A stretch of DNA of 64,000 nt from an uncultured Pelagibacteraceae bacterium (GTDB lineage Bacteria > Pseudomonadota > Alphaproteobacteria > Pelagibacterales > Pelagibacteraceae). The stretch lies in assembly GCA_902538445.1 (NCBI GenBank), contig CACBFE010000002.1, forward strand, positions 75,759 through 139,758. Reading direction: 5' to 3'. Within the stretch, counting starts at the first letter, position 1; each line of letters opens with the position of its first letter. Below, in pieces: positions 39,066-41,737 of this stretch. Both the position numbers and the translations under genes were made by a program. Under the pieces are notes generated by a model. It did not search any database and was not told the origin of the DNA. It worked only from the letters and a program-made list of their open reading frames with translations.

Positions 39066-39728
39066 ATGCCAAAAAAGAAAAAAGTAAAAAAAGTAAAAAA
39101 AGCTCTTAAAAATAAATCACCTAAAAAAGTAAAACAATCATTAAAGCTTTTGGATAAAAAAAATAATATTCCTGGCCCTGATGAAAAACCTGAAATCAAG
39201 AAGATTAAAAAGCAACCCACTGAAAAAAGAATCTATAATTTAAAAGATTTTGTTGTTTATCCTAAACACGGTGTGGGCCAAATAATGGCTGTTGACAAAT
39301 CAAAGATTGGAGAAATTGAAATCCAATTTTATAAAATATTAGTAGAGAAAGAAAAGTTAACTTTAACCGTTCCTATTAATCAACAATCGAAATTACGTCC
39401 GATAGCCTCTATTAATCAAATCAATAAGTGTGTTTCTATTTTGAAAACAAAACCAAAAATTAAAAGAACTATGTGGAGTCGACGTGCTCAAGAATATGAT
39501 CAAAAAATCAATTCTGGTAAAATTTATGAATTGGCCGAAGTTGTCAAAGATCTAAATAAAAATACAGATATTATTGCCGATCAATCTTATTCTGAAAGGC
39601 AATTATTTGAGAAAGCTTACGAAAGACTAAAATCAGAGTTTGAGGCAGTTTTAAAAATCAGTCCTGAAGAAGTTCAGAAAAAAATGGACAAAGCATTAGG
39701 AAGAACAAATATTGTAGAAAGCGCGTAA
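39066..39728 (+). CDS. CarD-family transcriptional regulator with Lys-rich N-terminal extension
   Basis: DFVVYPKHGVGQIMAVDK and TVPINQQSKLRPIAS CarD/TRCF-RID signature; N-terminal PKKKKVKKVKKALKNKSPKK tail. Confidence 0.9.
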   Translation: MPKKKKVKKVKKALKNKSPKKVKQSLKLLDKKNNIPGPDEKPEIKKIKKQPTEKRIYNLKDFVVYPKHGVGQIMAVDKSKIGEIEIQFYKILVEKEKLTLTVPINQQSKLRPIASINQINKCVSILKTKPKIKRTMWSRRAQEYDQKINSGKIYELAEVVKDLNKNTDIIADQSYSERQLFEKAYERLKSEFEAVLKISPEEVQKKMDKALGRTNIVESA

Positions 39729-39779: not shown

Positions 39780-39851
39780 CTATCTTCTTCTTCTTCTCTT
39801 TTTTGCTTTCTTTTTAGTTTTCTTTTTAGCTTTTTTTCTTCTTTTAGCCAT
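39780..39851 (-). CDS. Unannotated 23-aa ultra-basic peptide (MAKRRKKAKKKTKKKAKKRRRRR)
   Basis: Complete ATG-TAG frame; upstream GGGAG SD; dedicated terminator downstream. Confidence 0.6.
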   Translation of the reverse strand: MAKRRKKAKKKTKKKAKKRRRRR

Positions 39852-40060
39852 CTTTTCTCCCTTGTTAATAAACAAATCTTAGTGATTCGTTTGTTAATTA
39901 AACATTAATTATTAAAAGATTCATGTCAAATACAAATTAATTTAGAAAATTGATTCAAAAATTAAATTTTTAATTAATTTTTTTAATTTTAAATTACTTT
40001 ACAAAAAGTTAGTAATATCAATGTTTTTTTAAGCAATTGTTTTATTTTTTATTAATTAAT

Positions 40061-41737
40061 TTAATAAAGATTATCTAGTTGTTGTTTATAATTTTTAATT
40101 ATTTCTTTTCTTTTTAACTTTAAAGTTGGTGTTAACATTCCGTTTTCAATTGTAAATTCTTCGTGAATTAAAACAAATTTTTTAATTTTTTCTATTAAAC
40201 TTAAACTTTTATTTGTATTTTCAATTACAAGTTTAATTTTTTCTTTATTAATATCTTGTTCTGTAACAATTATTGCTACTAAATAGTTTTTTTTATCTCC
40301 ATAAACAAATGATTGTTTAATTAATGTATTTAAACATAAAATATTTTCAACCTTGCTTGGTGAAATGTTGTCTCCACCCAAATTTACTATAATGTCTTTT
40401 TTTCTATCAGTTATTTTTAAATAATTGTTTTGATCTAATTCACCAATGTCCCCAGTATATAACCAGCCATCTTTGATTACATTTTTTGTCTCCTCCTCTA
40501 GATTCCAATAACCTAACATAACGTTTTCACCCTTTATCAAGATTTCACCATCCTTTGCTATCTTTACCTTATTAGTTCTAAATGGAGGACCAACCGACTC
40601 GACCTTAATCAAATTCGGTACATTACAGCTTACAACAGGTGAAGCCTCGGTAAGACCATAACCTTGTAGTGTGGGTAAACCTACTGCGTTTAAAAATTCT
40701 CCAATATTTTGATCTAGTGCTCCTCCGCCGGAAACGAAGGCTTGAAGATTTCCTCCAAATTGACTTCTGATTTTTTTTCTTACTAATTTTTCACATATAA
40801 AATTTACGATTTTTTCATTAAAACTTAATTTCTCTTTTTTAAGAATTTTTTTACCTAATTTTAAAGTTTGGTTTATCAATTTTCTTTTAAGTCCTTTTTG
40901 TTTTTCAAAATTCATGCTTATTTTTACAAAAAGGTTTTGATAAAATCTTGGAACAGCTGTCATAATAGTGGGTTTAGCAATACTCATATTTGAAATTAAT
41001 TTTTCTAAACTCTCTGCATAAAAAACTTTTGCTCCGATTATTATTTGAATAAATTGTACAGTGTGTTCATAGGAATGTGATAATGGTAACCATGTTAAAA
41101 ATGCAGGATCTCTTTTTTCAGTTAGAGTTTCAAGTAACTCAACTGCTCCTTCACAATTTGATAGTATACCGCCATGACTTAGTATAACTCCTTTGGGGTT
41201 TCCTGATGTACCCGATGTATAAATAATACAGGCAGGCATATTTCTTTTTAATTTATTGTTAACCACTTTTTTATAATTTTTGTCTTCAAGAATATTTTGA
41301 ATTAATAAACTATCAGCGTCTATCTCTTCAAATGAGATCAATTTCTGTTTGCTTAAATTAATGTGTTTTTTTATTTTTTTAAATTGATCATTGTTTGAAA
41401 CTATAATTAATGATGGCTTACAATCATTTAAAATATATTCATAATCATTTGAAGAATATGTTGTGAAAATTGGAACTGATATTCCTCCTGCGTTCATAAC
41501 AGCAAGATCTGTCATTAACCAATACGGTCTATTTTCAGATAATATTAAACAACGATCTCCTTCTTGAATTAATGTTTGTAATTTTGATGAAAGTTTAAAA
41601 ATCCTCTCTTTTATTTCACCCCAACTATAAGATGGTTTTCCTGGTTTTAACCATTTTAAAAAAGGTCTGTTAGGATCTACTTCCTCACACTTTTTAAAAT
41701 ATAATTCTACAAGACTATTAAGTTTATCTATTTCCAT
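40061..41737 (-). CDS. Long-chain acyl-CoA synthetase (AMP-forming)
   Basis: IIYTSGTSGNPKGVILSH, GYGLTEASPVVS, GWLYTGDIGELDQNNYLKITDRKKDIIV. Confidence 0.93.
   Translation of the reverse strand: MEIDKLNSLVELYFKKCEEVDPNRPFLKWLKPGKPSYSWGEIKERIFKLSSKLQTLIQEGDRCLILSENRPYWLMTDLAVMNAGGISVPIFTTYSSNDYEYILNDCKPSLIIVSNNDQFKKIKKHINLSKQKLISFEEIDADSLLIQNILEDKNYKKVVNNKLKRNMPACIIYTSGTSGNPKGVILSHGGILSNCEGAVELLETLTEKRDPAFLTWLPLSHSYEHTVQFIQIIIGAKVFYAESLEKLISNMSIAKPTIMTAVPRFYQNLFVKISMNFEKQKGLKRKLINQTLKLGKKILKKEKLSFNEKIVNFICEKLVRKKIRSQFGGNLQAFVSGGGALDQNIGEFLNAVGLPTLQGYGLTEASPVVSCNVPNLIKVESVGPPFRTNKVKIAKDGEILIKGENVMLGYWNLEEETKNVIKDGWLYTGDIGELDQNNYLKITDRKKDIIVNLGGDNISPSKVENILCLNTLIKQSFVYGDKKNYLVAIIVTEQDINKEKIKLVIENTNKSLSLIEKIKKFVLIHEEFTIENGMLTPTLKLKRKEIIKNYKQQLDNLY

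Follow-up and report, generated by a model that had tools for sequence, protein, structure and literature searches.

A lysine- and arginine-rich micro-gene convergent with carD is conserved across Pelagibacterales and may encode a nucleic-acid-neutralising polycation

Introduction

The locus described here raises the question of whether a 23-codon open reading frame, made up mostly of lysine and arginine codons, is a gene at all and, if so, what a peptide of such composition could do in the cell. SAR11 bacteria count among the most numerous groups in the ocean and serve as a model for genome streamlining, and a gene that is found in essentially every SAR11 member examined, equipped with a promoter and an RNA leader, while being absent from family libraries amounts to a missing part of the minimal gene set. 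Both family libraries and gene-size cut-offs miss this micro-gene. Our literature search retrieved no paper describing the SAR11 gene, nor any experiment, transcript or proteomic record of it. A study from 2009 that screened intergenic regions in Pelagibacter reports several misannotated coding sequences (PMC2704228), and the Pelagibacter orthologue may have been noticed in passing there; public records may well list forms longer than 30 aa as hypothetical proteins.

The micro-gene and its neighbours

The micro-gene is located on the minus strand of the window (the whole 64-kb stretch of DNA that was analysed) at 39780–39851, with the ATG at 39851–39849 and a TAG stop codon at 39782–39780. It encodes the 23-residue polycation MAKRRKKAKKKTKKKAKKRRRRR, in which 11 lysines and 7 arginines make 18 of the 23 residues basic, and which contains no proline and residual repeats only. 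Both coordinates and sequence agree exactly with a first-pass annotation of the same DNA. Across the window, it is the single ATG-initiated reading frame of at least 20 aa with at least 50% K/R, and dinucleotide-preserving shuffles (n = 60) yielded none.

Approximately 210 nt from the micro-gene, upstream on the same strand, lies an AMP-binding (acyl-CoA synthetase-like) gene (40061–41737, minus strand; Pfam AMP-binding, 3.1e-67). On the other side, the micro-gene is convergent with carD (39066–39728, plus strand; CarD/CdnL family; Pfam CarD_C, 3e-20, and CarD_TRCF_RID, 3.9e-11), which is itself preceded by a ferredoxin gene. As had been pointed out in the first-pass annotation, the N-terminus of this convergent CarD protein is Lys-rich as well (MPKKKKVKKVKKALKNK). 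Approximately 50 Lys-rich N-terminal residues precede the CarD domain in the window (39066–39230), and the CarD open frames are longer still in genus g4 (about 270–325 aa, compared to 220–230 aa here), so tails of similar chemistry are found on both convergent genes.

Conservation across Pelagibacterales and evidence for coding

The carD gene was used as a synteny anchor for finding the micro-gene in relatives, since the complexity of the peptide is too low for profile searches; a profile search with the family alignment gave no match, not even in the window's own genome, owing to low-complexity filtering, and is uninformative. The first-pass annotation had proposed that a frame broken or unconserved in relatives would speak against a gene. 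Instead, the frame was kept, convergent with carD and in the same place and orientation, in 204 of the 205 Pelagibacterales loci with enough sequence past carD (six more contigs stop short of the gene and are outside the 205), and no Pelagibacterales genus from which a locus was recovered lacked the micro-gene. Some of the 205 loci represent one genome reached twice, and the 125 distinct CDSs are the better count. The sole exception, L126 (G006, genus g6), is a frameshifted copy in a MAG that reads MAKRRKGGKKKKKAKKKKKK and then continues in another frame, which could reflect an error of sequencing or of assembly in a homopolymer. One copy (L181) has a GTG start.

Seven genomes of the window's genus (G018, G064, G084, G102, G106, G110 and G138; 86–98% complete) showed neither carD nor a match spanning the whole micro-gene region, reflecting either an assembly gap at the locus or joint loss. 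Beside carD in 28 loci from other alphaproteobacterial families, one of which extends just 309 bases downstream, a convergent reading frame of such kind was absent, and the coding pattern had no exact counterpart in viral contigs.

All 125 distinct CDSs are in frame despite their varying length, and the distance from the micro-gene to carD occurs in all three phases (71/64/44). Among pairs of CDSs of equal length and one or two bases apart, 77 of 109 differences were synonymous, compared to 29.7 expected if those base changes fell at random positions of the CDS; the pairs are related, so this count is descriptive and carries no test statistic, but the trend it shows is plain. The most constant parts of the peptide are its start, MAK(R/K)RKK, and its Arg/Lys-rich end. 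Since the frame is conserved in relatives and synonymous differences are in excess, the micro-gene is a genuine protein-coding gene of Pelagibacterales-wide occurrence.

Promoter, leader hairpin and terminator

A TTGACA −35 box (39924–39929, minus strand) is located 40–42 nt before the GAATC of a leader hairpin, as in nearly all relatives. Among 198 leaders the box reads TTGACA in 177 and TTGACT in 16, and in 193 of them TTGAC(A/T) stands 38–43 nt (nearly always 40–42 nt) before GAATC. The ATG, by contrast, follows GAATC at anything from 35 to 60 nt. This combination of fixed and variable spacing indicates that the hairpin keeps its place relative to the promoter, and thereby to the mRNA 5' end, rather than to the start codon. 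Judging from the spacing, a presumed weak −10 region (TAATGT/AATGTT) is situated at 39901–39907 on the minus strand, and a scan with a generic promoter consensus listed no −10 box there. Because this element is weak and unlisted by the scan, the transcription start is one that we infer, near 39893.

The inverted repeat that the first-pass annotation had seen upstream of the frame corresponds to this hairpin, AAACGAATC-ACTAA-GATTTGTTT (39892–39870, minus strand), which has a 9-bp stem and a 5-nt loop (MFE −8.2, z −3.8) and is located where the mRNA is predicted to begin. It occurs order-wide (AACGAAUCA...UGAUUYGUU) approximately 41 nt past the −35 box, conserved with compatible changes, and its pattern was found a single time in the genome searched. 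When the first eight pairs were read in a fixed register, the non-Watson-Crick cells comprised 90 G-U against 13 A-C on the mRNA strand, counts which are inflated by the relatedness of the leaders; such an excess is as expected under selection for RNA pairing. When the longest stem was instead sought in any register, the two strands were poorly discriminated. Given the strand-specific G-U pairs, we favour the interpretation that the palindrome functions as RNA over that of a DNA operator only. In genera g5, g7, g9 and g12 the stem is shifted inward (AUCACWUAA/UUWAGUGAU) and the CGAAUCA sequence is unchanged, and because this sequence remains constant where the stem has moved off, CGAAUCA at the mRNA 5' end may itself be recognised by a sequence-specific binder. 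All Rfam matches near the locus were far below the gathering scores, with none over the leader hairpin, and the leader is not among the candidate RNA motifs of Ca. Pelagibacter ubique in the available portion of the 2009 article (PMC2704228).

The GGGAG ribosome-binding site and the GC-rich terminator of the first-pass annotation were likewise recovered. The former (39861–39857, minus strand) is positioned 5 nt before the ATG, and a box of the AGGG/GGGAG/AGGAG type is present in 198 of 198 leaders. The latter is an intrinsic terminator past the stop codon, in the spacer between the micro-gene and carD (39765–39733, minus strand), with a 14-bp stem and a U-tail (MFE −19, z −6.2); it is the one strong terminator hairpin between the two stops, is oriented for the micro-gene and has an equivalent in relatives. 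The earlier view of the locus, as a purposeful transcription unit likely to be overlooked by gene callers, is borne out by the conservation, the synonymous pattern, the fixed spacing between −35 box and hairpin, and the terminator.

Length series and long orthologues

The peptide is 19–25 aa long in the window's genus and the near genera g2 and g3, 20–24 aa in g6, g8 and g13, 20–32 aa in g5, 22–35 aa in g4, 29–41 aa in g7 and g9, and 34–58 aa in g12, giving an overall range of 20–58 aa for Pelagibacteraceae beyond the window's and its nearest genera. The 34–58-aa orthologues carry PAKK/KPAAKK repeats, and the 58-aa form contains KKPAAKKRKPAAKKKAPAKK. In the sister family f2, the gene at the same place encodes 76–85 aa (MEELKVIFAKARKKAKKKAAPKKKRKAAKRKPAKKKAAPKKKKRKAAKRKPAKKK...) with K/A/P repeats resembling histone H1 tails, AAPKKKKRKAAKRKPAKKK repeats being carried by these forms, the 85-aa one included. 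The Lys-rich, Ala/Pro-containing repeat composition is seen in the 34–58-aa and 76–85-aa orthologues; the 23-aa form in the window is Lys-rich but has residual repeats only and no proline.

In a CarD tree with long deep branches, f2 is placed beside Pelagibacteraceae. Distributed over this tree, the lengths are greatest in f2, mostly 29–58 aa in g12, g9 and g5, and 19–25 aa in g1, g2, g3, g6, g8 and g13. The simplest reading of the series is shrinkage from a long form, a direction of change that we infer, by which the peptide would have been reduced to 19–25 residues in the subclades nearest the window while the sister family kept 76–85. Alternatively, repeats may have expanded in some lines.

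Comparison with known polycations

Searches of Pfam, NCBIfam, PHROG and PDB with short and long forms gave no usable match. G000, G148, G040 and G012 yielded nothing with the HC2 model (PF07382) at E ≤ 10, with no control genome passing the cut-off, and the Ribosomal_L41 model (PF05162) similarly gave no match at E ≤ 10 with no control passing. The COX24_C model (PF08213; AURKAIP1-COX24, i.e. bS22) did not match either, while it did match the Corynebacterium control. HMMER profile models are weak on such K/R-rich composition. On present sequence comparisons, the gene constitutes a new SAR11 family whose product probably works like an H1 tail or a protamine, rather than a member of the Hc2, L41 or bS22 families.

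Protamines are eukaryotic sperm proteins, short and Arg/Lys-rich, that serve charge neutralisation. The SAR11 peptide is also short and rich in these residues, but its middle is dominated by lysine, and no homology is claimed. HU and IHF are folded nucleoid proteins, in contrast to the presumably disordered SAR11 peptide, for which a nucleoid role is proposed. With Hc2/HctB of Chlamydia, which has relatives in Bordetella and Burkholderia, the SAR11 gene product shares the character of a Lys-rich low-complexity polycation. Hc2 is a bacterial DNA-binding protein whose length varies by repeat number (PMC2848022), a drift which the SAR11 family resembles, and the 76–85-aa forms of f2 are alike in composition. 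However, Hc2 measures 165–237 aa, whereas the SAR11 form goes down to 19–25 aa with residual repeats, and the gene neighbourhoods differ. Kinship with named H1-like proteins has no model support, and polycations converge easily.

Possible function

The family is a conserved polycation without fold-forming residues in which a fourfold change in length is tolerated. We give an even chance to the interpretation that the peptide is a disordered polycation neutralising nucleic acid, most likely the chromosome, in the manner of a linker-histone tail or a protamine. The first-pass annotation had offered an open-ended list of roles, at the nucleoid, as an RNA chaperone, on the ribosome or on anionic lipids; of these the nucleoid mode is favoured because repeats resembling H1 tails are present in the long orthologues (58 and 85 aa) at the same locus. 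In vitro, rRNA and tRNA would be equally good ligands for a peptide so highly charged.

The main competing explanation is a ribosomal one, in which the product would be a lineage-specific protein, very small and basic, that threads into rRNA as eL41, bS22, bL37 or bTHX do; it resembles these in size and charge. Similar to the SAR11 peptide, eL41, bS22 and bL37 are roughly 25–35 aa long, extremely basic and easily missed by gene callers, and the own promoter, the 5' hairpin and the order-wide conservation would all suit a part of the translation apparatus. Actinobacterial ribosomes were recently found to contain the small basic proteins bS22 and bL37, with bS22 having 33 aa and both bS22 and eL41 being 55–65% positively charged (PMC10085706). 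If ribosomal, the peptide would add a hitherto unrecognised protein to the ribosome of a major clade. However, a range of 19 to 85 aa within one order, with freely varying repeats, is a poor fit to a fixed rRNA groove, and such fourfold drift is difficult to square with one set position on the ribosome. Unlike eL41, bS22 and bL37, the SAR11 peptide has no fixed length and no conserved non-basic anchor residue, be it an invariant aromatic, His, Gly or Leu, and the L41 and COX24 models and PDB gave no match, within the weakness of HMMER on such composition; we consider the ribosomal explanation unlikely, if worth serious attention. A general polycation, acting as an RNA chaperone, in the charge balance of a small cell, or in polyphosphate or acidic-lipid binding, is permitted by composition alone, and simulations in which abundant positive proteins reshape the mixing of nucleoid and ribosomes in a minimal cell count in its favour (PMC12858079). 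As the long orthologues with their H1-tail-like character suggest DNA first, and nothing is specific to RNA or lipid, this role appears decidedly doubtful.

The conserved 5' hairpin and the terminator, delimiting a transcript of roughly 160 nt, could indicate a structured transcript (an sRNA or attenuator) in which the purine-rich reading frame is incidental or a leader peptide. This is largely refuted, and very improbable, given that the frame is kept in 125 distinct CDSs with a synonymous excess and whole-codon expansion to 85 aa, that nothing lies downstream on the same strand to be attenuated, and that no Rfam family reaches its gathering score. Purine tracts are able to encode lysine and arginine, and a chance reading frame in the AT-rich spacer might arise from them, but order-wide conservation, the synonymous excess and the absence of such frames from the shuffles refute it and leave its probability close to nil.

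Under the preferred reading of a chromosome-neutralising polycation, the own promoter would produce a short monocistronic mRNA reaching from the hairpin, which probably stabilises the mRNA or regulates translation, to the terminator on the carD side. The peptide would then coat nucleic acid in many copies, and above all the AT-rich chromosome, by contacts with the phosphate backbone that are independent of sequence; it would both neutralise charge and assist in compacting or organising the nucleoid beside HU. The genome of the window encodes two HU-family proteins (PF00216), so the peptide would add to HU rather than replace it. Selection would act on the charge, the MAK(R/K)RKK start and the R-rich end rather than on a fold, and the length could therefore drift freely. 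A more far-reaching proposal, which is conceivable but which we would sooner doubt than accept, is that the peptide ranks among the smallest bacterial chromatin proteins, linker-histone-tail-like, conserved throughout SAR11 and cut down from about 85 to about 20 residues as the genomes were streamlined, and that it is made from an mRNA of its own on which the order-specific 5' hairpin sets the dose, possibly through autoregulation.

If the peptide does pack DNA, very little protein suffices for a chromatin-like function, and the gradation of sizes from 85 to 19 residues inside a single order opens the minimal length to direct testing. At the long end of this series, the f2 orthologues (L221–L232) start with the mostly non-basic MEELKVIFAKARKK, a start that is absent from the Pelagibacteraceae forms.
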